The position numbers and the translations under genes were made by a program. From the NCBI RefSeq assembly GCF_001602525.1, contig NZ_LSYT01000005.1:186001-250000 (forward strand): a stretch of DNA of 64,000 bases, written 5' to 3'. Numbering within the stretch: the first letter of the stretch is position 1; each line of letters opens with the position of its first letter. This DNA is from Flavobacterium chilense. Lineage in GTDB: Bacteria > Bacteroidota > Bacteroidia > Flavobacteriales > Flavobacteriaceae. The notes beneath the pieces were generated by a model. The model did no database searches. It was not told the DNA's origin and worked only from the letters and a program-made list of their open reading frames with translations. Shown here one piece after another: positions 5,151-23,867 of the stretch.

Positions 5151-5194
5151 ATGATATTTGTCATTTTATATCGTCAATCGATACTCTAATTTTG
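5151..5194 (+). promoter_or_regulatory. Fnr-type box plus -7 element upstream of hemN
   Basis: ATGATATTTGTCAT (5151-5164) is a 14-bp palindrome of the form ATGAY-N4-RTCAT, one base per half-site away from the classical Fnr box TTGAT-N4-ATCAA. A perfect Bacteroidota -7 element TAATTTTG lies at 5187-5194. The box centre is 29.5 bp upstream of the first base of the -7 element, which puts it about 41-42 bp before the likely transcription start. No TTG -33 element stands at the usual distance, as expected for an activator-dependent promoter. The same arrangement occurs upstream of ccoS. Confidence 0.75.
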
Positions 5195-5216
5195 ATTTGT
5201 CCAAAAATGCACTTTT

Positions 5217-6581
5217 ATGAAAATATCACTTACTCAAAAATACAATGTTCCCGGTCCAAGATACACAAGTTATCCAACCGTTCCGTATTGGAATGAAAGT
5301 GAATTTACAGAACAAAAATGGATCAGTTCATTCCAAAAGGCATTTTCTGAAAGTAATTCCCAAAACGGAATCAGCTTATACATACACCTCCCTTTTTGCG
5401 AAAGTATGTGTACTTTTTGTGGTTGTAATAAGCGTATTACAAAAAATCATTCTGTCGAGGAAACCTATATAAAAGCACTTATAAAAGAGTGGAGCTTATA
5501 TTGTAAAGTTCTTTCGGAAAGACCTTTAATAAAAGAAATACATCTTGGAGGCGGAACTCCTACTTTTTTCTCAAAAGAAAATTTAGAGCAATTAATAAAT
5601 GGTATTTTTTCTTTTGCCAATAAAGCTGAAAATTATGAATTTAGCTTTGAAGGACATCCAAATAATACAACTTACGAACAGCTAAAAAAATTATATGATC
5701 TTGGCTTTCGCCGAGTAAGTTTTGGTGTTCAGGATTATGCAGAAAAGGTTCAAAAAGCAATCAATCGTATACAGCCTTTTCATAATGTTGCCAAAGTTAC
5801 TTTTTGGGCTAAAGAAATTGGATACAAATCTATTGGGCACGATATCATATTTGGATTACCGTTTCAGACACTTGCAGATGTAATTGATACAGTTGAAAAG
5901 ACAAATTCATTAAAACCGGATAGGCTGGCATTTTACAGCTATGCGCGTGTACCATGGATTAAAGGAAATGGTCAGCGTGGGTTTAATGATGAAAATCTTC
6001 CAAAAGACGCAGAAAAAAGAAAACTTTACGAAATTGGAAAACAAATGCTCTCCAAAAATGGCTATCATGAAATTGGAATGGATCATTTTGCTTTAGAATC
6101 TGACAGCTTGTTTAAAGCCGCTCAAACTCAAAAATTACATCGAAACTTTATGGGATACAGCGCCTCAAAAACACAATTAATGATTGGTTTAGGTGTTTCT
6201 TCTATTAGTGACAGCTGGTATAGTTTTGCTCAAAACACAAAGAGCCTGGAAGATTATTATCAGTTATTAGAATGGGATAAACTGCCTGTTGTAAAAGGTC
6301 ATATTCTAAACAATGAAGATCTAATTATAAGAAAACATATTCTGAACCTGACTTGTGAATTTGAAACTTCCTGGAGTGATGAAATGCTTTACTTTAAAGA
6401 GATTTCGGATGTATTGGCAGATCTTGAAGAAATCGAAAAAGACGGATTGATAGTTATAGCAGAAAACAAAATAAGAATCACAGAAGCCGGAAGACCTTTT
6501 GTACGCAACATTTGTATGGCTTTTGATTTACATCTAAAAAGAAAATCTCCCGAAACTAATCTGTTTTCTATGACGGTTTAA
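5217..6581 (+). CDS. hemN: Oxygen-independent coproporphyrinogen III oxidase
   Basis: Radical-SAM enzyme that decarboxylates coproporphyrinogen III to protoporphyrinogen IX without oxygen, so haem can be made at low oxygen. The 454 residues include the radical-SAM cysteine motif C61-x3-C65-x2-C68 followed by G-C70 (CESMCTFCGC), as in true HemN, and the early YTSYPTVPYW segment. A GGGTPTFF glycine motif follows near residue 110. The C-terminal HemN domain (about 350-450) is present, which separates it from the shorter HemW. Start ATG at 5217 follows the Fnr-type promoter. Haem supply fits the cbb3 oxidase genes that follow. Its stop overlaps by 4 bases the stop of the convergent SafE-like gene. 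Confidence 0.92.
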   Translation: MKISLTQKYNVPGPRYTSYPTVPYWNESEFTEQKWISSFQKAFSESNSQNGISLYIHLPFCESMCTFCGCNKRITKNHSVEETYIKALIKEWSLYCKVLSERPLIKEIHLGGGTPTFFSKENLEQLINGIFSFANKAENYEFSFEGHPNNTTYEQLKKLYDLGFRRVSFGVQDYAEKVQKAINRIQPFHNVAKVTFWAKEIGYKSIGHDIIFGLPFQTLADVIDTVEKTNSLKPDRLAFYSYARVPWIKGNGQRGFNDENLPKDAEKRKLYEIGKQMLSKNGYHEIGMDHFALESDSLFKAAQTQKLHRNFMGYSASKTQLMIGLGVSSISDSWYSFAQNTKSLEDYYQLLEWDKLPVVKGHILNNEDLIIRKHILNLTCEFETSWSDEMLYFKEISDVLADLEEIEKDGLIVIAENKIRITEAGRPFVRNICMAFDLHLKRKSPETNLFSMTV

Positions 6582-7279
6582 TGACAGTTAGGAGACGACT
6601 GAACAAACAAACTCATATTAGCCGGAGAAACATAAGGAATTCCCAAACCTAAACCTCTCAAAATAAATAAAACCCCAATTACTACCGCAACATAAGGAAT
6701 TGCCTTTTGAATTTTATTTCGAAATGGCAATTTCAACAACGAATGAATATAAACTACTATTGTCATTAACGGAATCGTTCCTAATCCGTACAATAACATG
6801 TAGAGTACGCCAAAACCGGCACTTTGCATGGCTATTGCACCAAATAAGGCTACATAGACCATTCCGCATGGCAGGAAACCGTTTAACAAGCCTATTGTAA
6901 AAAGCGATTTATAACTTTTCTTTTTAAACTGACTGCCTAAAGTTGATTTTATATTGGAGATTACCTTGTAAACAGGTTTTGAGAAATTATATTTAGCGAA
7001 TATTTTTTCGGGTATTAAAACAACAAGTATCATTCCAATACCAATAAAGATTGACATTTTTTGTTGCATTCCAGCCAAAAAGAAGCCTCTTCCCAACAGT
7101 CCGAATATTAAACCAATTATAGAATAAGCGGTTAATCTTCCTAAATGATAAGTAATAATCTGAGTTACTTTTTTAACTTCATTTTGATGATCAACCGGAA
7201 GCATCATAGCAATTGGGCCACACATTCCAACACAATGCAGGCTGCTGATAAGACCCAATATAAAAGCCGAGATTAACAT
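6578..7279 (-). CDS. SafE/TauE-like membrane protein of the cbb3 assembly locus
   Basis: 233 residues with about six hydrophobic helices. The N-terminus carries LHCVGMCGPIAMM, a C-x3-C-G-P motif typical of the SafE/TauE-type (UreH-like) proteins found beside ccoG/ccoH. Those are distantly related to CcdA and to copper-handling factors used in cytochrome oxidase maturation. It is the last gene of the run after ccoH (5-base gap), so a role in cbb3 assembly, perhaps metal or redox handling in the membrane, is inferred from context. The automatic label sulfite exporter should not be taken literally. Confidence 0.75.
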   Translation of the reverse strand: MLISAFILGLISSLHCVGMCGPIAMMLPVDHQNEVKKVTQIITYHLGRLTAYSIIGLIFGLLGRGFFLAGMQQKMSIFIGIGMILVVLIPEKIFAKYNFSKPVYKVISNIKSTLGSQFKKKSYKSLFTIGLLNGFLPCGMVYVALFGAIAMQSAGFGVLYMLLYGLGTIPLMTIVVYIHSLLKLPFRNKIQKAIPYVAVVIGVLFILRGLGLGIPYVSPANMSLFVQSSPNCH

Positions 7280-7284
7280 TTTTA

Positions 7285-7734
7285 TTAATTTACGTAAATA
7301 ACTTCTTTAGTTAAGAATTTTTTGCCCTCATATTGCCATTCCATATTAACATCCCAACGTCCTTTGATTAGTTTTTTCTGAGGTATCATTAATGACGAAT
7401 TGGTTAAAGCAATCTGAGTATCAAAATCAAATTTTTTATTTGATGGACGGTATAATAAAATATTCCCTTGTACTTTATCGCTTTCAAAAGATGCAGGAAA
7501 AGTCACTTTTACACCATCATTCTCCCATTTAATTGAAGGTTTATGCTGTAAATCGTGCGCATTTTGAATTCTAGCCATTTCGTCCTGAAAATGAGAATCA
7601 TGTTTGTAATATTCTTCTACAACTAAATCATTGTCATATTTGGTATTTGACTGTACTTCAAAAACAAAATATAAAATAAAGCTCATAAAGAGTGCAAATG
7701 CAATGACTATTCCGGTTCCCCAATTAATTTTCAT
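7285..7734 (-). CDS. ccoH: FixH/CcoH family cbb3 assembly protein
   Basis: 149 residues: one N-terminal transmembrane helix (about 6-27) and a periplasmic domain of about 115 residues. Y-Y-K-H-D-S-H-F-Q just after the helix resembles the YYxxxxxY/Q start of the FixH domain. FixH/CcoH is needed for stability of the cbb3 complex. It sits downstream of ccoG with a 106-base gap and 5 bases before the SafE-like gene, in the usual gene order. Confidence 0.8.
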   Translation of the reverse strand: MKINWGTGIVIAFALFMSFILYFVFEVQSNTKYDNDLVVEEYYKHDSHFQDEMARIQNAHDLQHKPSIKWENDGVKVTFPASFESDKVQGNILLYRPSNKKFDFDTQIALTNSSLMIPQKKLIKGRWDVNMEWQYEGKKFLTKEVIYVN

Positions 7735-7840
7735 ATCTGTAAATTTTACTTGTTAGTAGTCAGGATATATAATCGCTTTTTAGTTATTCATTTTTGTTTT
7801 GCAAAAGTTTTATTAGCGGCGATTTTATCATGTATTTTTT

Positions 7841-9259
7841 TTAATTAAAACTTCGTGGTCCTAAGAAATTTGTAGTTGTAGTTTCAAGAAGTTCTTTGCC
7901 ATTATAAACGCCAATTTTCACATTGGTTTTATCACTTTCTAACAGAACTTCTTTTATTTCTATAAATAATGTTCCTTGTGAGATACCTTCTTTTGCTACT
8001 TTAAAATGTTGTTTTCCAACATTTTTTATTTCACCTTTTTGATTGATTAATTCAAAATGAATGTCGTTATAATCTTTCATTGTTTTGTTGACAATTTTAT
8101 ACGTATAAACGTTACTGATTTTGTCTCCTTTATGCTGAAAAAGCTGTCCCGGTAATCGTAAAATAACAGCCTGAACATCTGTTCTAAGAAATAACATTCC
8201 AATAAAAACACTCAGTAAAATAAATAGAACTGCTGTATAGCCTTTCATTCTTGTGGTAAACTTAAAAGGTTCTTTTTTCGCAATTTCATCTTCAGAAGCG
8301 TAGCGAATAAGTCCTTTTGGTAATCCTACCGTTTCCATTATATGGTCACATTCATCAATACAGGCAGTACAATTTGTACATTCCAACTGAGTTCCGTTTC
8401 TAATATCGATTCCCATTGGACAAACATGAACACACTGAAGGCAATCAATACAATCTCCTTTTCCTGTTATGGCTCTGTCTTCTTTTTTATTGAATTTAGC
8501 TCGTCCTTTTTCTTTTTCGCCACGTACAAAATCATACGCCACATTAATTGATTTATTATCTAAAAGAACGCCTTGTAATCTTCCGTAAGGACATGCAATA
8601 ATACAAACCTGCTCACGAAACCATACAAAAACAAAATAAAAAACTCCTGTAAAAATAAGAAGTGCAGTAAAATTACTTGCCTGTTCAACAGGACCTTGCT
8701 CTACCATTAAAAACAATGCATCACTACCTACTAAATAAGCCAGAAAAACATTGGCGATCCCAAAAGAAATCAGGAAGAAAATTGTCCACTTAATAAGTCT
8801 CTTTCTAATTTTCTCCGCATTCCATTCCTGTCTGGCTAAACGGGATTGCGCGCCACGGTCTCCATCAATCCAGTATTCGATTCGGCGAAAAACCATTTCG
8901 AGAAAAATAGTTTGCGGACATATCCATCCGCAAAAAATCCTTCCAAAAACAACGGTAAATAAAATTACAAAGACAACGCCAACAAGCATTGAAATTACAA
9001 ATAGGTAGAAATCCTGGGGCCAAAAAGGAAATCCAAAAATATTAAATCGACGTTCTAATATATTGAACATCATAAATTGGTTTCCGTTTACTTTAATAAA
9101 AGGATTTACGATTAAAATGGTCAGCAAAATATAGCTGACCATTTTTCGGTAATTATAAAACTTACCAGACGGTTTCTTGGGAAAAATAAATTTTCTGTTA
9201 CCACCTTCATCTATAGTTCCAATGGTATCTCTAAAAGCTTCGTCTGGTAAATTTGACAT
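7841..9259 (-). CDS. ccoG: Cytochrome c oxidase accessory protein CcoG (FixG/RdxA)
   Basis: Membrane-bound polyferredoxin required for cbb3 oxidase maturation and proposed to reduce copper. In 472 residues it shows several transmembrane helices (about 40-60, 83-107, 155-177, 197-215 and 334-352) and a GWICPQ segment near 111. Two 4Fe-4S motifs are visible: C270-x2-C273-x2-C276-x3-C280-P and C294-x2-C297-x2-C300-x3-C304. A C-terminal Ig-like FixG_C domain covers about 370-470. The start lies 10 bases after the ccoP stop, so it is translated from the cco operon. Confidence 0.93.
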   Translation of the reverse strand: MSNLPDEAFRDTIGTIDEGGNRKFIFPKKPSGKFYNYRKMVSYILLTILIVNPFIKVNGNQFMMFNILERRFNIFGFPFWPQDFYLFVISMLVGVVFVILFTVVFGRIFCGWICPQTIFLEMVFRRIEYWIDGDRGAQSRLARQEWNAEKIRKRLIKWTIFFLISFGIANVFLAYLVGSDALFLMVEQGPVEQASNFTALLIFTGVFYFVFVWFREQVCIIACPYGRLQGVLLDNKSINVAYDFVRGEKEKGRAKFNKKEDRAITGKGDCIDCLQCVHVCPMGIDIRNGTQLECTNCTACIDECDHIMETVGLPKGLIRYASEDEIAKKEPFKFTTRMKGYTAVLFILLSVFIGMLFLRTDVQAVILRLPGQLFQHKGDKISNVYTYKIVNKTMKDYNDIHFELINQKGEIKNVGKQHFKVAKEGISQGTLFIEIKEVLLESDKTNVKIGVYNGKELLETTTTNFLGPRSFN

Positions 9260-9269
9260 GATATTCTAA

Positions 9270-10211
9270 TTATTTTTTAACTTCTGTGGTATCTTTTTCT
9301 GTTTTTGCAGCTCCGTCTTTTTTAGGAGCGCTGTCATCGACCCAAATTTCACCTTCAGGTGCTTTTGGATCTTTTGGGTTACTACCCTGCAATGACAAAA
9401 TGTAACTGGCAACTTTCTGAATTTCTTTTGGCTTCATACCATTTGTTTTCCAGGAAACCATTCCTTTGCCGTCACGTCCTCCGTTCGTAATGGTGTGAAA
9501 TATATTTTTAATTCCTCCACCTAAAATCCAATGGTCATCTGTTAGGTTTGGCCCAATCTGACCTCCGGCATCTGCTCTGTGGCAAGCTGCACAGTTCGTC
9601 ATGAAAATTTCCTTTCCTGCTGCTAAACTTGGTGCATCTGTTAACAAAACAACTGTTTTTTCATCCATCAAATCAGGGGCAGTTTTAAGATATTCTTCGA
9701 CTTCTATCTTTGCCTTCGCCATATCTTTTTTAAGTTCTGTTTCCTGATCATCTCCACCAAATAACTCATAACTTGCTACATAGACTACACCAAAAATGAT
9801 ACAGATGTAGAATAAATAAACCCACCATGGTGGTAAATTATTATCAAGCTCTTTGATACCATCATAATCATGATCCATCAAAAGATCTCCTTCTTTTTCT
9901 ATTGGTTCTGTTTTGGTAAGCTTGTGCATAAGGTTTTTAAACCAGGCACTTTCTTTTAGGCTTAAAGTATTTTCATATTCTAATTTTGCCTTTTCTTCTG
10001 GTGACAATAACTGATACATCACTCTATTTACTGCACTAAGTGTAACTTCAATAGCAATTAAGATAAACAGGAAGACAAACAAAAAGACAGATACCATTGG
10101 ATATTTTATAAAAGCCGGTCTGTCGCCCGAGTCAATAAAATATTCCATCAAAGCAAAAACGATGAAAAAAATCAACGGTACTCTAACATATACTGGGAAA
10201 AACTTTTTCAT
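9270..10211 (-). CDS. ccoP: cbb3-type cytochrome c oxidase, subunit III (single haem)
   Basis: Passes electrons from the quinol-oxidising chain to the catalytic subunit. The 313 residues contain two N-terminal helices (about 10-25 and 40-65), a long cytoplasmic loop, a CcoP-type helix (about 130-148, after LPPWW) and one cytochrome c domain (about 190-275). Only one C-x2-C-H motif is present (CAACH, about 207-211), with a likely distal Met in GKGMVSW. Proteobacterial CcoP has two haems, so this is the shorter Bacteroidota form. The acidic/lysine-rich tail after 280 is low complexity. A single base separates it from ccoQ. Confidence 0.9.
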   Translation of the reverse strand: MKKFFPVYVRVPLIFFIVFALMEYFIDSGDRPAFIKYPMVSVFLFVFLFILIAIEVTLSAVNRVMYQLLSPEEKAKLEYENTLSLKESAWFKNLMHKLTKTEPIEKEGDLLMDHDYDGIKELDNNLPPWWVYLFYICIIFGVVYVASYELFGGDDQETELKKDMAKAKIEVEEYLKTAPDLMDEKTVVLLTDAPSLAAGKEIFMTNCAACHRADAGGQIGPNLTDDHWILGGGIKNIFHTITNGGRDGKGMVSWKTNGMKPKEIQKVASYILSLQGSNPKDPKAPEGEIWVDDSAPKKDGAAKTEKDTTEVKK

Positions 10212-10212
10212 T

Positions 10213-10407
10213 TTATCTATCTTTTGAAATTATAATACTTCCTTCTTCTAAAGGGATCTGGCTCATTTCATCAATTTTGTCTTTTTTATAAGAGAATACC
10301 CAAAAGCCTAATCCTACGAAAAAGAAAAAGAAAATCAAGAGAGAAATAATCGGGTAAACTTCTATACCCGATATGGTTTCCATGTTGTGTTTTATTTGTT
10401 CAAACAT
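10213..10407 (-). CDS. ccoQ: CcoQ-type cbb3 oxidase subunit IV
   Basis: A 64-residue protein with one transmembrane helix (about 18-38, ISLLIFFFFFVGLGFWVF) and a short charged tail. Size, topology and place between ccoNO and ccoP (gaps of 7 and 1 bases) fit CcoQ, which stabilises the cbb3 complex. Sequence similarity alone in so short a protein is weak; the call rests mainly on position. Confidence 0.82.
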   Translation of the reverse strand: MFEQIKHNMETISGIEVYPIISLLIFFFFFVGLGFWVFSYKKDKIDEMSQIPLEEGSIIISKDR

Positions 10408-10414
10408 AATGCTG

Positions 10415-12601
10415 TTATTTAGAAGTTTCTTTTACCTTAATATCAGTACCAAGCCTTTGTATATAAGCAATCAAAGCCACAATCTCTCTTTCGTTCATTG
10501 GTACGAATTTTTCACCTTTTGCTGCTGCTTTTTTCTTACTGTCTTCATAACTCTTCACATAATCAGGATCGTTTTCTAAGCTTTTTTCTATCTTAAGCGC
10601 CTGAGTTCTTAAGGTTTTTTGTGCATTTGTAACTTCATCCTGAGTATAAGGAACTCCAAGTGATATCATAGCCTGCATTTTTTTCTCTGTCAATGAAAGA
10701 TCCATTGGTTTATTATCAAACAACCATTTGTATCCTGGCATTATTGATCCTGCAGAAGTACTTTGCGGATTCCACATATGATTAAAGTGCCAGTTATCAT
10801 TATACTTACCACCTACTCTTAATAAATCCGGGCCTGTACGTTTTGATCCCCATAAGAATGGATGATCGTATACAAATTCTCCTGCTTTAGATTGTGGTCC
10901 GTAACGTTCTACTTCACTTCTAAACGGACGAACTGATTGTGAGTGACAACCAACACAGCCTTCTCTGATATATAAATCACGTCCTTCAAGCTCTAACGGT
11001 GTATATGGTTTTACACTTGAAATGGTTGGGATATTAGATTTGACCATAATGGTTGGTACAATTTGAATAATACCTCCAATTAAAATAGCAATGGTAGCTA
11101 AAATGGTTAACTGAATTGGTTTTCTTTCTAACCATGAATGGAATTTTTCTCCACTTAATCTTGTACTGTTTATTTTTTGTAAAGCCGGTGCCTGAGCCAA
11201 CTCGTCTTCGATAGTATTTCCTGCTCTTACGGTCATAATAATATTATAAACCAGTGTTAGCATTCCAATCAGATATAAAGTACCACCAATAGCTCTCATC
11301 CAGTACATTGGCATAATAGCTGTTACTGTTTCAAGGAAGTTACCATACGTTAAGGTACCATCAGGGTTAAATTGTTTCCACATTGTAGCTTGCTGAAAAC
11401 CTGCTACGTACAACGGAATTGTATATATAATAATTCCTAAAGTACCAATCCAGAAGTGAAAGTTGGCTAATTTTTTAGAGAATAATGTAGATTTTGTCAT
11501 TCTTGGTATCAACCAATAAATCATACCAAAAGACATAAATCCGTTCCAGGCCAATGCTCCAACGTGAACGTGAGCAATAATCCAGTCTGTATAGTGCGCA
11601 ATAGCATTTACATTTTTCAGAGAAAGCATTGGTCCTTCAAAAGTTGCCATTCCGTAACCTGTGATCGCTACTACGAAGAATTTTAAAACCGGTTCTTCAC
11701 GAACTTTGTCCCATGCACCTCTTAAAGTTAAAAGCCCGTTGATCATACCTCCCCATGATGGAGCAATCAGCATTACAGAAAATGCAACTCCTAAATTCTG
11801 AGCCCAGTTTGGTAAAGCAGAATATAATAAGTGGTGTGGTCCTGCCCAGATATAAATAAAGATTAAAGACCAAAAGTGAATAATAGATAATCTATAAGAA
11901 TATATAGGACGGTTGGCTACTTTTGGAATAAAGTAATACATTAATCCCAAAAACGGTGTTGTTAAGAAAAATGCTACTGCATTATGTCCGTACCACCATT
12001 GCACCAATGCATCCTGAACTCCTGCATATACAGAATAACTTTTTAAAGCAGAAACCGGTATTTCTATATTATTAAAAATATGCAATACTGCAACCGTAAC
12101 AAATGTTGCAATGTAAAACCAAATTGCTACATACAAATGTCTTTCTCTACGACGCAACATGGTACCAATCATGTTGATTCCCATTACCACCCAAATAAGT
12201 GCAATAGCAATATCAATTGGCCATTCTAACTCGGCATACTCTTTTGATGAAGTATATCCTAATGGCAATGTAATTGCAGCTGCGACAATAATAAGCTGCC
12301 ATCCCCAAAAATGTAAATTACTTAAAAAGTCACTAAACATTCTGGCTTTTAGTAATCGCTGCAGCGAATAATACATACCCGCAAAAAAGGCATTTCCAAC
12401 AAAGGCAAAAATTACCGCATTGGTGTGTAAAGGTCTTAATCGACCATAACTAAGCCATGAAATCCCATCTGTCATGTTGGGAAAAAGGTACATAACCGCT
12501 AAGGTTAGCCCCACTAACATACCCACTACTCCAAAAAGGATAGTGGCGTAAATGAATTTTTTTACAATTTTGTTGTCGTAGTAAAACTGTTCCATTTCCA
12601 T
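10415..12601 (-). CDS. ccoNO: cbb3-type cytochrome c oxidase, fused subunits I and II (CcoN-CcoO)
   Basis: The catalytic core of the high-affinity terminal oxidase. Residues about 1-475 are CcoN, a multi-helix haem-copper oxidase subunit with RPLHTNAVIF in helix 2 and the conserved WWYGHNAVAFF and IIAHVHVGALAW histidine segments. Residues about 495-728 are CcoO: one helix, then a mono-haem cytochrome c domain with CVGCH at about 549-553 and the CcoO-typical SVRPFRSEVERYG. In proteobacteria these are two proteins. One continuous 728-codon frame with no stop between the halves shows a real fusion, as known in other Bacteroidota. The second gene of the ccoS-NO-Q-P-G run. Confidence 0.94.
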   Translation of the reverse strand: MEMEQFYYDNKIVKKFIYATILFGVVGMLVGLTLAVMYLFPNMTDGISWLSYGRLRPLHTNAVIFAFVGNAFFAGMYYSLQRLLKARMFSDFLSNLHFWGWQLIIVAAAITLPLGYTSSKEYAELEWPIDIAIALIWVVMGINMIGTMLRRRERHLYVAIWFYIATFVTVAVLHIFNNIEIPVSALKSYSVYAGVQDALVQWWYGHNAVAFFLTTPFLGLMYYFIPKVANRPIYSYRLSIIHFWSLIFIYIWAGPHHLLYSALPNWAQNLGVAFSVMLIAPSWGGMINGLLTLRGAWDKVREEPVLKFFVVAITGYGMATFEGPMLSLKNVNAIAHYTDWIIAHVHVGALAWNGFMSFGMIYWLIPRMTKSTLFSKKLANFHFWIGTLGIIIYTIPLYVAGFQQATMWKQFNPDGTLTYGNFLETVTAIMPMYWMRAIGGTLYLIGMLTLVYNIIMTVRAGNTIEDELAQAPALQKINSTRLSGEKFHSWLERKPIQLTILATIAILIGGIIQIVPTIMVKSNIPTISSVKPYTPLELEGRDLYIREGCVGCHSQSVRPFRSEVERYGPQSKAGEFVYDHPFLWGSKRTGPDLLRVGGKYNDNWHFNHMWNPQSTSAGSIMPGYKWLFDNKPMDLSLTEKKMQAMISLGVPYTQDEVTNAQKTLRTQALKIEKSLENDPDYVKSYEDSKKKAAAKGEKFVPMNEREIVALIAYIQRLGTDIKVKETSK

Positions 12602-12603
12602 AA

Positions 12604-12795
12604 TTATACTTGTTTTTCTTCGGTTGGTGAATTATTATTCTGGGGAGTAATTTTGGTTTCATCGTCAAAAAGCATTCTGACTGATGGCGTATAATCATCA
12701 TCATATTGTCCTGATTTAACAGCTACAATAAAGGCGATAAAGAACCCTATTGCTACGAAAATACTTACTGAAATTAATAGATAAATAACACTCAT
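12604..12795 (-). CDS. ccoS: cbb3 oxidase maturation protein CcoS
   Basis: 63 residues: one helix (about 4-25) followed by the CcoS signature in which a DDDYTP acidic motif comes before R-M-L-F-D-D. CcoS is needed to insert the redox cofactors into the cbb3 core. First gene of the operon, 2 bases before ccoNO, and directly behind the Fnr-type promoter at 12814-12857. Confidence 0.88.
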   Translation of the reverse strand: MSVIYLLISVSIFVAIGFFIAFIVAVKSGQYDDDYTPSVRMLFDDETKITPQNNNSPTEEKQV

Positions 12796-12813
12796 ACCTT
12801 AATTTTATGTTAA

Positions 12814-12857
12814 CAAAATTACTAGTTTAGAGGCGGGGAAAATATGATAATTATCAT
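12814..12857 (-). promoter_or_regulatory. Fnr-type box plus -7 element of the cco operon
   Basis: On the minus strand, a TAATTTTG -7 element (12821 down to 12814) is preceded by the palindrome ATGATAATTATCAT (12844-12857), which extends to a perfect 16-bp palindrome at 12843-12858. The box centre is 29.5 bp from the first base of the -7 element, identical to hemN, which places the box near -41.5 of the expected start. No TTG -33 element is present. The ccoS start codon is at 12795. Confidence 0.78.
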
Positions 12858-12903
12858 ACTAAAAGACTAATGTTAAATTTAAAGAAAAATACTTTTAAAT
12901 TAT

Positions 12904-15297
12904 TTATAATCGTTTTAAATTGCTGTTACTGAAATAGTTAGACATTAAAGTAACAAAACTAACAATAGTAATTGTACTTAACGGCATTATAATAGCCGCA
13001 ACTAACGGAAGCAGGTTTCCTGTAACAGCAAAAGTGAGCCCAACTACGTTATAAAGCAATGATAAAACAAAACTCATTTTAATGATTGTAATAGACTTAT
13101 GAGACAATTTTAAAAAATAGTCCAATCGTGAAAATTCGCTCGCATCGAGTATAGCATCACAAGCCGGAGAGAATACATTTACGTTTTCTGAAATCGAAAT
13201 CCCCACATTACTTTGTGCCAGTGCGCCGGCATCATTTAAGCCATCTCCAACCATCATTACATTCTGGCCTTTTTCCTGAAGCTTTTTAATAAACTCCAGT
13301 TTTTGCTCAGGTTTTTGATTAAACACGAGTTCAGTTCCTGCTGGTAAAATTGTTTCCAGATTCGTTCGCTCTCCATCATTATCTCCTGAAAGTACTTTTA
13401 TCTGGTAGTTTTTACTTAATGACAAAAATAACGTTGCAAGACCATCTCTATATTGGTTCTGAAAGCTAAATCTTCCATAATAAATATCATTGATCTTAAT
13501 ATGAAGTGCGGTTTTTTCGATTTCTGAAGAATTCAGTTCCGGACTTTCAACAAATGAAGCCGAACCTATTTTAATTGTTTTATCTTCAAAAGAAGCTAAA
13601 ATTCCTTTTCCTGTTATTTCCTGAAAATCATCTATTTTAATTCTTTTTGATTCCGGCAGAAAATCATATAACATTCGGCTTAAAGGATGATTTGAAGCAC
13701 GAAGTACGTTTTTTATCAATACATAATCTTCTTCTGAAAGCGCTTCACCTTCGTAGGTAATATTCGATTTTTTATTGGTTGTAATCGTTCCTGTTTTATC
13801 AAAAACAATGGTATCAACTTTTGCCAATTGTTCTATAACCAGAGCGTTTTTAAGATACATTTTTTGTTTTCCCATAATTCTCAGGATATTCCCAAATGTA
13901 AAAGGAGCCGTAAGTGCAAGTGCACAAGGGCATGCTACTATTAAAACAGCTGTAAAAACATTAAAAGCAGTATTTGCATCAATAAATATCCAATACCCAA
14001 ATCCTGCTAAAGCAATTAGCAATAATATAGGTGTAAAATAACGACTGATTTTATCGGTAATTGTTTTGTGTTTTTGCTCTACATTTTTCTGAAAAATCTC
14101 ATTACTCCATAATTGGGTCAGATAACTTTGTGATACAGAATGCAGGACTTCCATTTCGATTACTTTACCAATTTGCTTTCCGCCGGCGAATAATTTATCA
14201 CCGGATTTTTTGGTAATCGGAACTGCTTCTCCGGTTACAAAACTATAATCAATCTCTGCTTTTTCACTAATTAAAATACCATCAACCGGAATTAACTCCT
14301 GATTTCTAATTAACAATCTGTCGCCTTTTAAAACATCATAAATAGGAACACTTTCTTCTGAAGTATTAGAATTGATTCGGGTAACTGCGATTGGAAAATA
14401 GGATTTAAAGTCTCTTTCAAAACTTAAAAAGCTATAGGTTTTAATTTGAAACATTTTTCCAAGAAGCATAAAGAAAACCAATCCTGCTAAGCTGTCAAAA
14501 AAACCGGATCCGTAGTTCATGACAATATCAAAAGTACTTCGAATAAACATTACAACAATTCCTAAAGCGATAGGAATGTCAATATTCAGCATTTTGGATT
14601 TTATACTTTTATAGGCTGAAACATAATAGCCACTGGCTGAATACAAAAAACTTGGTAATGCTAAAATAAAAATCAACCATCTAAAAAAGGGTTTGTAGTT
14701 ATCAAGCCAAAACTCTTTGATCTCAAAGTATTCAGGAAAGGATAACAGCATAATATTTCCAAAACAAAAAAACGCAACACCAAGTTTATAGGTTAAACTT
14801 CTGTCTACTTTATTTTTTCCGGTTTCGTAGTTTTCTAAACTTATATAGGGTTCATAACCTATTGAACTTAATAAATAAGCAATTGATTTTAGAGATACAG
14901 TATCTGAATTGTAAGTAATTCGAACTTTCTTTTCCGGAAAATTAACTTGTGATATGCTTATTCCTGGTTGCAGGCGATTAAGATTCTCCAGAATCCAAAT
15001 ACAGGAACTACAATGAATATGCGGAATATTTAAGGAAACTATTGCAGTATTGCCTTCCTGAAATTCCAAAACTTTTGATAGGATAGTTTCATTTTCAAGA
15101 AAGTCATATTTTCCTTTTATGTCTTGAGGAGTAGCACCTGGTGATTTTTCAAAATCATAGTAACAGGTCAAATCATTGAGACTAAAAATTTCATAAACTG
15201 TTTTACAACCGGTACAACAAAACTTTTTTTCATCAAAATTGATTTCTTCATCTTTTGGAATGGTTAATCCACAATGAAAACAACTCTGCTCACTCAT
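12904..15297 (-). CDS. ccoI: Copper-transporting P-type ATPase for cbb3 oxidase (CcoI/FixI)
   Basis: P1B-type ATPase that supplies copper for cbb3 oxidase assembly. It has 797 residues. An N-terminal cysteine cluster (C6, C9, C27, C28, C31) typical of FixI comes first. An HMA domain has HIHC96-SS-C99. Membrane helices follow, with the C456-P-C458 copper motif. The phosphorylation site is D500-KTGT, and a GDGLND hinge and two final helices complete it. The arrangement is that of FixI/CcoI rather than the CopA detoxification pump. It is transcribed toward the cco operon but separated from ccoS by the Fnr box region, and has its own Fnr-type box at 15349-15362. Confidence 0.93.
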   Translation of the reverse strand: MSEQSCFHCGLTIPKDEEINFDEKKFCCTGCKTVYEIFSLNDLTCYYDFEKSPGATPQDIKGKYDFLENETILSKVLEFQEGNTAIVSLNIPHIHCSSCIWILENLNRLQPGISISQVNFPEKKVRITYNSDTVSLKSIAYLLSSIGYEPYISLENYETGKNKVDRSLTYKLGVAFFCFGNIMLLSFPEYFEIKEFWLDNYKPFFRWLIFILALPSFLYSASGYYVSAYKSIKSKMLNIDIPIALGIVVMFIRSTFDIVMNYGSGFFDSLAGLVFFMLLGKMFQIKTYSFLSFERDFKSYFPIAVTRINSNTSEESVPIYDVLKGDRLLIRNQELIPVDGILISEKAEIDYSFVTGEAVPITKKSGDKLFAGGKQIGKVIEMEVLHSVSQSYLTQLWSNEIFQKNVEQKHKTITDKISRYFTPILLLIALAGFGYWIFIDANTAFNVFTAVLIVACPCALALTAPFTFGNILRIMGKQKMYLKNALVIEQLAKVDTIVFDKTGTITTNKKSNITYEGEALSEEDYVLIKNVLRASNHPLSRMLYDFLPESKRIKIDDFQEITGKGILASFEDKTIKIGSASFVESPELNSSEIEKTALHIKINDIYYGRFSFQNQYRDGLATLFLSLSKNYQIKVLSGDNDGERTNLETILPAGTELVFNQKPEQKLEFIKKLQEKGQNVMMVGDGLNDAGALAQSNVGISISENVNVFSPACDAILDASEFSRLDYFLKLSHKSITIIKMSFVLSLLYNVVGLTFAVTGNLLPLVAAIIMPLSTITIVSFVTLMSNYFSNSNLKRL

Positions 15298-15317
15298 AAT
15301 TTGTTTTTTTAATCCGA

Positions 15318-15362
15318 CAAATATTCAAAATATGCAGCGATTATAACTATGACATTTATCAT
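15318..15362 (-). promoter_or_regulatory. Fnr-type box between ccoI and the Crp/Fnr gene
   Basis: ATGACATTTATCAT (15349-15362) matches ATGAY-N4-RTCAT. On the minus strand a near-consensus -7 element AATATTTG (15325-15318, one mismatch to TAnnTTTG) lies 30.5 bp from its centre, close to the 29.5 bp seen at hemN and ccoS. It therefore probably drives ccoI. The divergent regulator gene has its own -7 element much farther away (15474). Confidence 0.62.
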
Positions 15363-15499: not shown

Positions 15500-16180
15500 A
15501 TGAATAAATGTGATCAATGTATCGTAAGACAGCTTTCTTCATTAAAAGCACTTAACAAAGATGAGGTTATAAAACTGGCTAATAGCAAAACAACTTATAC
15601 AATAAAAAAAGGCGAAGCTATTTTTGAAGAAGGTGAAGTTACCAATGGTGTTTTTTGCGTTAAAGACGGAGTTGGAAAACTTTCTAAATTAAGTGCTAAC
15701 GGAAAAGATCAAATCGTAAAACTGGTGAAATCCGGAGAGCTTTTGGGACAACGTTCCATGATTAGCAATGAGCCTGCAAATTTATCTGCAAAAGCAATTG
15801 CTGATATGGAAGTTTGCTTTATTCCGAAATCTGAAATCATCCATTTTTTTAATAACAACAATCAATTCTCTTTGAATTTGATGCAGTCTGTTTGTGAAGA
15901 TTTGAAAGAATCTGAAAACGATAAAATTGCGTTAGTTCAAAAAACAGTAAAACAACGTCTGGCAGAAACTTTATTACATCTGGACGATGCTTTTGGTGAA
16001 AACGAGGATAAAACTTTAAAAGTCCAGCTAACCCGTGAAGAATTAGCCGGAATTATTGGCACTGCCACAGAAAGTTGCATCAGATTATTGTCTGATTTCA
16101 ACAAACTGGGTCTGATTGAATTAGTGGGTAAAAAAATTAAGCTAAAAGATATAAAAGCACTCAAAAAATTAGCTGAATAA
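15500..16180 (+). CDS. Crp/Fnr family transcriptional regulator
   Basis: 226 residues: a cyclic-nucleotide-binding-like beta barrel (about 25-125), a dimerisation helix (about 125-155) and a winged helix-turn-helix (about 170-215). The recognition helix T190-E-S-C-I-R195 keeps the Glu and Arg that read TGA in Fnr, but has Ile194 where E. coli FNR has Ser212. The N-terminus has C4-x2-C7 like an Fnr iron-sulfur site; further cysteines are C53, C106, C132 and C193, but the third N-terminal cysteine of E. coli FNR is absent. With Fnr-like boxes at ccoS, ccoI and hemN, a role as the low-oxygen activator of these genes is likely but inferred. It meets mazG tail to tail with no gap. Confidence 0.85.
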   Translation: MNKCDQCIVRQLSSLKALNKDEVIKLANSKTTYTIKKGEAIFEEGEVTNGVFCVKDGVGKLSKLSANGKDQIVKLVKSGELLGQRSMISNEPANLSAKAIADMEVCFIPKSEIIHFFNNNNQFSLNLMQSVCEDLKESENDKIALVQKTVKQRLAETLLHLDDAFGENEDKTLKVQLTREELAGIIGTATESCIRLLSDFNKLGLIELVGKKIKLKDIKALKKLAE

Positions 16181-22999: not shown

Positions 23000-23629
23000 T
23001 TATCTATTAAATAATCTTCTAAAAAATCCTCTTTCCTCCTCTTCATCATCTTCCTGTGCTTCATAATTCGCAAACTTTGATTGCGCTTTCTCATGTTCGT
23101 ATATTAACTCCTTAATATATTCTACATAAGTTCTCTTTTTTTCCTCTAAAAATCCAATCAGATATTTTTCACTAAACTCTACTCCGCTTGCAGCTTCGAT
23201 CTGAAGTAGTTTTTTATATAAAGGCTCAATATGCATCGCAATAACTTCTTGCGGAACTGCTTGCCTTCTTCCAAAATAATTTACAATAACACCATGTTCA
23301 TCACGTGCAATCTCAAAATCTGTAATCACCCAATAGTATCTTCCTGACTTGGCTAAGTTTTTTACAATAGCATGAAAGTTTTTTCCATTTTTAAGATTTT
23401 CCCACAATACTTTAAAAATCACCTTTGGCATATCCGGATGACGAATAATATTATGTGGTTGCCCCATTAACTCGTAATCTTCATAACCACAAACATCAAC
23501 AAAAACTTCATTGGCATATTCGATAATACCAAAAGCATTTGTTTTACTCATAATTACTTGCGTTTTATCCCATGTAACTTCTTTATCAATAACTGTCACT
23601 GGAGTTCGAAGTTGATTTTCTTGATTCAT
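23000..23629 (-). CDS. Stand-alone PAS-domain protein (Aer-like PAS)
   Basis: 209 residues. One PAS domain (about 20-125) of the type found in the aerotaxis receptor Aer: FGIIEYANEVFVDVCGY, the MGQPHNIIRHPDMP signature and the KSGRYYWV segment. No methyl-accepting, kinase, GGDEF or HTH output domain follows; the rest is helical, with a very acidic stretch (QEDDEEEERG) and a basic tail. It probably senses a small ligand or redox state and signals by protein contact. The partner is unknown. Confidence 0.8.
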   Translation of the reverse strand: MNQENQLRTPVTVIDKEVTWDKTQVIMSKTNAFGIIEYANEVFVDVCGYEDYELMGQPHNIIRHPDMPKVIFKVLWENLKNGKNFHAIVKNLAKSGRYYWVITDFEIARDEHGVIVNYFGRRQAVPQEVIAMHIEPLYKKLLQIEAASGVEFSEKYLIGFLEEKKRTYVEYIKELIYEHEKAQSKFANYEAQEDDEEEERGFFRRLFNR

Positions 23630-23867
23630 TTCTTGTTGATTATATTTTATGATTTGGAATTGGTAATACTAAATTCTGATTCATCAGATTTAATCCGGCA
23701 AAAGTATTGAGAAGAAAAAATTCAAAACCTGACTTTTGTCATATTTTGATATAAAAAAAACTTTTAGTGGCTTGTTATTAAAATTAAGTTTCTTATTGAA
23801 TTATTTTTATTTATCAAATTAAAAACAAAAAGTTACATTTATAACTTTTTCAAGTCCCTTAACTTTT

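Follow-up and report, generated by a model that had tools for sequence, protein, structure and literature searches.

Three palindromes of the form ATGAY-N4-RTCAT precede hemN, the cbb3 oxidase operon and ccoI in the 64 000 nucleotide stretch of the Flavobacterium chilense genome that was analysed (the window). Computed directly were the boxes themselves, their promoter geometry, their conservation among relatives, their recurrence through the genome and the class Bacteroidia, and their co-occurrence and linkage with the gene of a Crp/Fnr-family regulator. The boxes are probably activator sites centred at −41.5 that are read by a Crp/Fnr protein of the FNR type, in all likelihood the product of 15500–16180, and we infer from these data, with good confidence, binding, reader, cluster, oxygen signal and activation in a low-oxygen regulon. 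In this mechanism, falling oxygen would be the signal for the 15500–16180 protein. Its dimer, probably held by an iron-sulphur cluster on C4, C7, C106 and one further ligand, would attach to ATGAY-N4-RTCAT and take over the contact with RNA polymerase from the −33 element. It would turn on the cbb3 oxidase operon, haem synthesis without oxygen and the loading of copper, along with some eight further promoters. Many genomes of the class share both the protein family and this arrangement of promoters. An earlier interpretation of the same DNA from its letters (the sequence-only reading) was partly supported.

Boxes and promoter geometry in the window

The first box (ATGATATTTGTCAT, 5151–5164, + strand, letters read directly, predicted centre −41.5) lies upstream of hemN, encoding oxygen-independent coproporphyrinogen III oxidase (5217–6581, +; TIGR00538 above cut-off), and is followed by the −7 element TAATTTTG at 5187–5194 (+) with a predicted start at about 5199. 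On the − strand, the palindrome ATGATAATTATCAT (12844–12857, letters likewise read directly) and a second TAATTTTG (12814–12821, predicted start about 12809) precede ccoS, the cbb3 oxidase assembly gene that heads the operon (12604–12795; TIGR00847 and PF03597 above cut-off). The run continues on that strand with a ccoNO fusion for cbb3 oxidase subunits I and II (10415–12601; NF011053 and TIGR00780 above cut-off), a ccoQ-like small protein (10213–10407; PF05545 at 24.9 bits, under the 29-bit cut-off), a ccoP-like cytochrome c subunit (9270–10211; PF14715 and PF13442 above cut-off), ccoG (7841–9259; TIGR02745 above cut-off), a FixH-family protein (ccoH, 7285–7734; PF05751) and, as its last gene, a DsbD_2-family membrane protein (6578–7279; PF13386). 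The third box, ATGACATTTATCAT at 15349–15362 (ATGATAAATGTCAT on the ccoI strand, −), and a degenerate −7 element, AATATTTG (15318–15325, −; one mismatch to TAnnTTTG), stand before a heavy-metal P-type ATPase gene for copper supply (12904–15297, −; PF12156, PF00122, PF00702), which was called ccoI from family and context. A fourth site of the same geometry, the related box ATGACAAAAGTCAG (23729–23742, −) with the −7 element TACTTTTG (23699–23706, −), precedes the ORF of a small PAS-domain protein (23000–23629, −; PF08447) that we read as Aer-like.

Direct reading confirmed the positions given by the sequence-only reading for the first three boxes, and the distances from box centre to the first base of the −7 element, 29.5 bp for hemN, 29.5 bp for ccoS and 30.5 bp for ccoI, were as it had claimed. 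The pattern ATGAYNNNNRTCAT matched exactly three times in the window, at these boxes; over 100 dinucleotide shuffles of the window its mean was 0.35, and three matches were reached in 1 of 100. Extension of the box by N20-25 and TANNTTTG left two window matches, those of hemN and ccoS, and gave none in 100 shuffles. No TTG was seen by eye between box and −7 element in the hemN or ccoS promoter, in agreement with the −33 TTG having been described as lacking there. TAnnTTTG is placed at −12 to −5 relative to the start in PMC9723704, and addition of 12 to the 29.5 bp therefore puts the box centre at −41.5; the class II geometry that had been proposed is supported to this extent for hemN and ccoS, as a position predicted from the spacing and the published start map.

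Conservation was followed in orthologous Flavobacterium promoters, with close relatives in these and the co-occurrence counts not independent of each other. The hemN box was kept in 29 of 29 readable loci (28 at 29.5 bp), the ccoS box was found in strict form in all 78 relatives holding the region, and the ccoI box in strict form in 76 of 79, the remaining three having one end base changed; the spacers around the conserved boxes drift. For ccoI, the best −7 candidate in the 79 relatives always missed one consensus base and lay at 29.5 bp in 43, at 30.5 bp in 34 and at 32.5 bp in two. Of 72 relatives with the PAS gene, 30 had its site in the exact geometry. The cysteine-bearing Crp/Fnr gene adjoins cco and ccoI in 80 fetched relatives except L088, in which the cco genes and ccoI are lost, and L090, in which the region is ended by a contig end. 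Autoregulation of the regulator through the ccoI box is not favoured, since on the side of this box that faces the regulator no TAnnTTTG was found in the window at the spacing of a class II promoter, and L088 keeps the regulator yet is without the box there.

Recurrence in the genome and in the class

Taken alone, the box was too weak to serve as a genome-wide marker, with 48 sites in F. chilense against 35 for the reversed pattern, which was the control in all pattern searches. The box core combined with the −7 element at N16-31 gave a strong signal, 19 matches against 6. The pattern allowed 16 spacings; eight of the 19 matches had the same one, 29.5 bp (P 9e-6 for uniform spacing), and 13 lay at 28.5–30.5 bp. 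The same geometry also precedes globin, Usp, YceI, U32 and PAS genes in this genome, and the proposal of a local regulon was therefore rejected. Both globins matched Bac_globin as full proteins; their 70-residue fragments were without a Pfam match.

Among 119 Bacteroidia genomes, 187 ATGAY sites with the geometry were found against one control match, and the spacing peak was sharp, with 187 matches at three spacings as against 96 at the other 24 (co-occurrence, spacing and linkage totals were computed from manually transcribed tables). Of 142 fetched class sites, 131 lay outside ORFs of at least 100 aa, the split being judged by ORF length and not by annotation, and 116 of these lay no more than 300 bp from a gene start (median 30 bp). 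The families downstream of the 116, as raw tallies for box-bearing promoters taken by themselves, included cytochrome c (11), Crp/Fnr (10), PAS (4), CcoN (3), pyruvate:ferredoxin oxidoreductase (3), Usp (3), NuoA (2) and CtaA (2). A −33 TTG was largely absent here too: 99 class sites, taken by themselves, gave no strong signal, with a mild TTG excess at −31 (8 of 99 against 2.0 expected).

The statement that Bacteroidota use ATGAY proved too wide. In a sample of the phylum, 25 of 37 genomes belonging to the class had an ATGAY site, as did 7 of 111 outside it, where a phylum-wide use is thus unsupported and the −7 element of the pattern may itself not apply; within the class, GTGAY (68), TTGAY (48) and CTGAY (31) in the same geometry also exceeded their controls (1, 6 and 0). 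ATGAY stands as the main half-site of the class, with 187 of 334 symmetric sites.

The candidate regulator and other possible readers

The protein encoded at 15500–16180 (+) belongs to the Crp/Fnr superfamily (PF00027 at 65.7 bits and PF13545 at 63.3 bits, both over cut-off) and carries C4, C7, C106 and the helix TATESCIR. The curated Fnr model NF008365 was the best of 13 NCBIfam models, at 80.2 bits against a cut-off of 228; its positions 19–243 align to residues 3–225, an alignment that brings both N-terminal cysteines and the equivalent of C122 into register. C4, C7 and C106 are kept in 80 of 80 relatives, which have Ser (72) or Thr (8) at the C29 position. In an alignment of 29 class orthologues (L159, for which a wrong ORF had been taken, was left out of 30), CxxC and C106 were counted by eye in all, a further N-terminal cysteine followed 8 residues on in 17, 9–10 on in six and was absent in six, and the recognition helix was ExxIR in 28 and ExxTR in one.

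Escherichia coli FNR has the cluster cysteines C20, C23, C29 and C122, an ExxSR helix and the site TTGAT-N4-ATCAA, and its oxygen-labile [4Fe-4S] cluster controls dimerisation. The system described here is like it in the Crp/Fnr fold, in the paired N-terminal cysteines and C122 equivalent, in a box predicted at −41.5 and in a similar target logic of respiration and anaerobic metabolism. It differs in that three of the four cysteine positions are kept, with Ser/Thr at the C29 equivalent, that Ile replaces S212 in the helix, that hemN, cco and ccoI carry ATGAY and not TTGAT, and that the promoter, recognised by the sigma factor of Bacteroidota, is of the TAnnTTTG type. Judged by its residues, naming the protein Fnr overlooks the absent cysteine and the altered recognition helix.

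Of 55 genomes with an orthologue of the window protein, 45 had ATGAY sites and 10 had none, whereas such sites occurred in 20 of the 64 that lack a clear orthologue; when each family was represented by a single genome, the values were 21 of 25 and 10 of 31. The E-value limit used for the orthologue set, E < 1e-36, was chosen after the list was seen, but the association held at all six thresholds that were tried. Within 5 kb of cysteine-bearing orthologue genes, 17 sites lay among the matches listed against 0.49 expected (Poisson, assuming 3.7 Mb genomes; 3 of the 17 are from one genus). Co-occurrence and linkage thus make the gene at 15500–16180 the best candidate regulator of the boxes, as the sequence-only reading had proposed for this neighbour, although a paralogue could also use the box.

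It is unlikely, in our judgement, that the boxes are unexceptional class II sites of the Crp/Fnr family, tolerant at their first base and shared by several members including a receiver-fused ExxSR one, and that ATGAY has no distinct specificity. Such sharing would fit the excess of the three other half-sites over their controls, the Usp box CTGAT..ATCAG and the ribB box TTGAC..ATCAA of this genome, both at exactly 29.5 bp, and the four sites near receiver-Crp genes, chosen by eye among listed long frames, against 0.23 expected among the matches listed; but association with the orthologue was found for ATGAY only (P 0.84, 1.0 and 0.43 for the other three), and the preponderance of ATGAY among symmetric sites argues likewise.

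Less probable again is a main reader in the paralogue L119 (G000:C4), perhaps a haem or nitric-oxide sensor, with the cysteine-bearing protein sharing the regulon or having another. This Crp/Fnr protein has no N-terminal cysteines, adjoins a globin gene and has the same Ile in its helix, RVETVIR. In this genome and two congeners a box of the same geometry, 63 bp from its gene, precedes a small membrane protein gene, which in this genome is followed by the globin gene; no Pfam family was found for the small membrane protein or for the gene downstream of L114. Sites near genes of L119 relatives numbered 7 against 0.24 expected among the matches listed, and 4 of 7 genomes with only the L119-type paralogue had sites. 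Sites were nevertheless present in 35 of 44 genomes with only the cysteine-bearing orthologue, and it is the latter gene that stands beside cco and ccoI in the relatives; L119 may share the box. Chance palindromes in an AT-rich genome, tied to promoters by the sequence-only reading, would suit the counts for the box alone and are contradicted by conservation and the spacing peak, which leaves them a negligible probability.

Counted against an FNR-type activator encoded at 15500–16180 were the orthologue-less genomes with sites and the orthologue genomes without, the Ile and linkage of L119, the retention of three of four FNR cysteines and the lack of a consensus −7 element for ccoI in 79 relatives.

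Related systems and wider reading

In Alphaproteobacteria, the cbb3 operon and genes of the hemN type are driven together by one Crp/Fnr protein, FixK or FnrL. A single Crp/Fnr protein is proposed for the same targets here, in another phylum and with another box, and the window protein matches the models of those families more weakly, at 66 and 65 bits where the cut-offs are 300. Under oxygen limitation, cbb3 oxidase and haem-synthesis genes are up in Flavobacterium psychrophilum, whose TAnnTTTG promoter is the one used above, and this was counted in favour of the preferred activator reading; the text of PMC9723704 contains neither 'crp' nor 'fnr', and its passages on the response name no regulator or box for it.

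We are evenly divided over a broader reading, by which Bacteroidia would have their own FNR lineage, distinct in sensor and helix. The fourth cysteine of its iron-sulphur sensor would vary, standing as in C-x2-C-x8-C, at a shifted position, or, in Flavobacterium, nowhere. The Ser-to-Ile change in its helix would have converted the half-site TTGAT into ATGAY, and the lineage would govern class II promoters of the unusual TAnnTTTG type as a low-oxygen regulon throughout the class. Bacteroidia are prominent among the bacteria of soil, water and gut, and their oxygen control is little described in searchable papers; a recurring box, spacing and candidate regulator would make it predictable from sequence. 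They would also provide an example from nature in which recognition helix and half-site have changed together, and one of an FNR-like protein in which a cluster cysteine has been lost. A search with narrow terms and limited coverage of subscription papers found no publication on the box or its regulator in Bacteroidia, which is weak evidence of novelty.

The best match among solved structures was the Crp/Fnr regulator of PDB 2gau (E 6.6e-28). The match begins at residue 17 and is thus uninformative on the N-terminal cysteines; the helix Glu is not aligned as Glu, and the aligned helix also ends in IR.

Boxes and promoter geometry in the window

The three ATGAY-N4-RTCAT boxes, at 5151-5164 (hemN), 12844-12857 (ccoS) and 15349-15362 (ccoI), were read directly with their -7 elements and agreed exactly with the sequence-only reading, as did the gene names (hemN, ccoS-ccoNO, ccoI-type ATPase, Crp/Fnr regulator). 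The cco run was ccoS-ccoNO-ccoQ-ccoP-ccoG-ccoH with a DsbD-type protein, and the locus also held the ccoI-type P-type ATPase and the Crp/Fnr regulator (15500-16180). In the window, ATGAYNNNNRTCAT gave 3 matches versus 0.35 expected, and the joint pattern of box and -7 element was matched by the two boxes with a perfect -7 element and in 0 of 100 shuffles. A fourth box of the same kind served a PAS gene at 23000-23629, with exact geometry kept in 30 of the 72 relatives holding that gene.

Distances were taken from the box centre to the first base of the -7 element (TAnnTTTG). A published F. psychrophilum start-site map places TAnnTTTG at -12 to -5 (PMC9723704), so that the box centres are predicted at -41.5 (ccoI, -42.5), in line with the class II placement proposed earlier; the same paper reports a rise of cbb3 oxidase and haem-synthesis genes under oxygen limitation (PMC9723704). 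At class II promoters the Crp/Fnr protein would take the role of the -33 TTG element; behind the sites collected across Bacteroidia no strong TTG was found at -33, with a mild excess at -31, as expected under such a takeover.

Conservation in Flavobacterium and sites across the F. chilense genome

The regulator served as bait to collect 80 Flavobacterium relatives, which at 89-97% identity are not independent. When the same promoters were compared in these flavobacteria, the boxes held: a strict box lay upstream of ccoS in 78/78 relatives holding the region (leaving out L088, whose cco genes were lost, and L090, which ends too early) and of ccoI in 76/79, the remaining three differing in one end base. 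For hemN, 61 genus genomes were searched and 55 had a match; a start could be read in 29 of the 30 loci fetched. The strict box was present in 29/29 and TAnnTTTG at 29.5 bp in 28/29, versus a box in 18/5800 shuffled upstream regions. In the ccoS alignment the spacer drifted, and the box and TAATTTTG were nearly invariant. At ccoI (window -7 element, 15318-15325) the -7 consensus was absent from all 79 relatives while the strict box was kept; the best candidates were spaced at 29.5 bp (43 relatives), 30.5 bp (34) or 32.5 bp (2), the first T nearly always replaced by A or G. L088 (Flavobacterium fluviatile) kept the regulator and lost the adjoining cco genes, ccoI and box (upstream of 10001).

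The TGAY-N4-RTCA core followed by TAnnTTTG at N16-31 was matched 19 times across the 5.9 Mb genome, versus 6 for the reversed-pattern control. Spacing was exactly 29.5 bp in 8 and 28.5-30.5 bp in 13, the latter being 12 distinct boxes with a right-strand gene downstream of 11 (exception, locus L103) and ATGAY at 16/24 half-sites; at other spacings, 5/6 matches lay inside ORFs. Behind these boxes were hemN, ccoS, the PAS gene (23000-23629) and genes for Usp, RibB, a U32 protein, a YceI protein, an unknown protein, a small membrane protein followed by globin, a second globin, and a beta-barrel outer-membrane protein (family match just under the Pfam cut-off) sharing its box with divergent SmpB. 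For the U32, YceI and outer-membrane proteins, the family scan used a copy from F. chilense or a congener. The observation was confirmed with a larger extent than claimed: the box and promoter geometry of the proposed regulon are real, but it is not local, given 12 boxes at 28.5-30.5 bp genome-wide.

Class-wide sites and association with the regulator

ATGAY-N4-RTCAT + N21-23 + TAnnTTTG was found at 187 sites in 65/119 Bacteroidia genomes (control, 1). With the gap widened to 10-36, 283 matches were obtained versus 61 in the control, the three peak spacings accounting for 187 and the remaining 24 for 96. Of 150 listed sites 142 were fetched (29.5 bp, 99; 30.5 bp, 28; 28.5 bp, 15); 131 lay outside ORFs of at least 100 aa, and 116 of these had a gene start within 300 bp. 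Families behind the 116, as raw tallies among the matches listed, were cytochrome c (11), Crp/Fnr regulators (10), PAS (4), cbb3 subunit I, pyruvate:ferredoxin oxidoreductase, benzoyl-CoA-reductase-like and Usp (3 each), and NuoA, CtaA and tryptophanase-like (2 each). The Crp/Fnr genes (10/116; e.g. loci L261 at G035:C131, L194, L235, L254 and L268) suggest cascades or autoregulation in other families.

The proposal that Bacteroidota use ATGAY was drawn too broadly: sites were present in 25/37 genomes inside the class and faded outside it (7/111). Other first bases occurred at the same spacing in the 119 genomes (TTGAY 48, GTGAY 68, CTGAY 31; controls 6, 1, 0), for example at G000:C1:876932 (ribB) and G095:C23:260182; GTGAY boxes recurred in genomes such as G050, G085, G103, G114 and G115.

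ATGAY sites were present in 45/55 genomes with an orthologue of the window's regulator versus 20/64 others, an association stable at six thresholds; TTGAY, CTGAY and GTGAY had no such link in the 119 genomes. With one genome per family the counts were 21/25 versus 10/31, and 0/14 genomes in which protein search found nothing had sites. Within families the contrast usually ran in the same direction, family f5 (5 sites, no orthologue), f36 and f35 being a poor fit or neutral. Near orthologue genes 17 sites were counted versus 0.49 expected. The sequence, geometry, conservation and association of the boxes are shown by computation.

The candidate regulator and its paralogue

C4, C7 and C106 of the window's protein aligned (Fnr model offset) with FNR C20, C23 and C122, and Ser stood at the C29 position. 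With C53, C132 and C193 also conserved, another position could supply the fourth ligand. All 29 class orthologues kept CxxC and the C106 position; a third N-terminal cysteine stood 8 residues further on in 17 and 9-10 further on in 6, and 6 orthologues had none. The recognition helix read ExxIR in 28/29. In FNR this Ile position holds a serine that touches the first base of TTGAT, and the loss of that serine would fit the ATGAY half-site. Binding, oxygen response, a cluster and activation are proposed for this candidate from sequence. The system is FNR-like in design; among the defining features tested, it departs from E. coli-type FNR in one cysteine, the helix, the half-site and the curated score.

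The Crp HTH family had six matches in F. chilense; the sixth (L120) scored under the cut-off and looks like a different HTH type. L116 (G000:C1:645968-646168) fuses a receiver domain to a Crp-type protein with an FNR-like ExxSR helix, and such fusions had long-frame matches in many class genomes.

It is quite possible that a paralogue, L119, shares the box with the cysteine-bearing protein: its helix (RVETVIR) has the same Ile, with no N-terminal cysteines, a box lies 63 bp from it in F. chilense and two congeners, and its relatives had 7 nearby sites versus 0.24 expected. Sites occurred in 4/7 genomes with the L119 type alone, 10/11 with both, 35/44 with the cysteine-bearing protein alone and 16/43 with neither but some other match. 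L119 (G000:C4:87468-88124) was clustered with a class II box, a family-less small membrane protein and a globin gene; box and neighbour recurred in two congeners.
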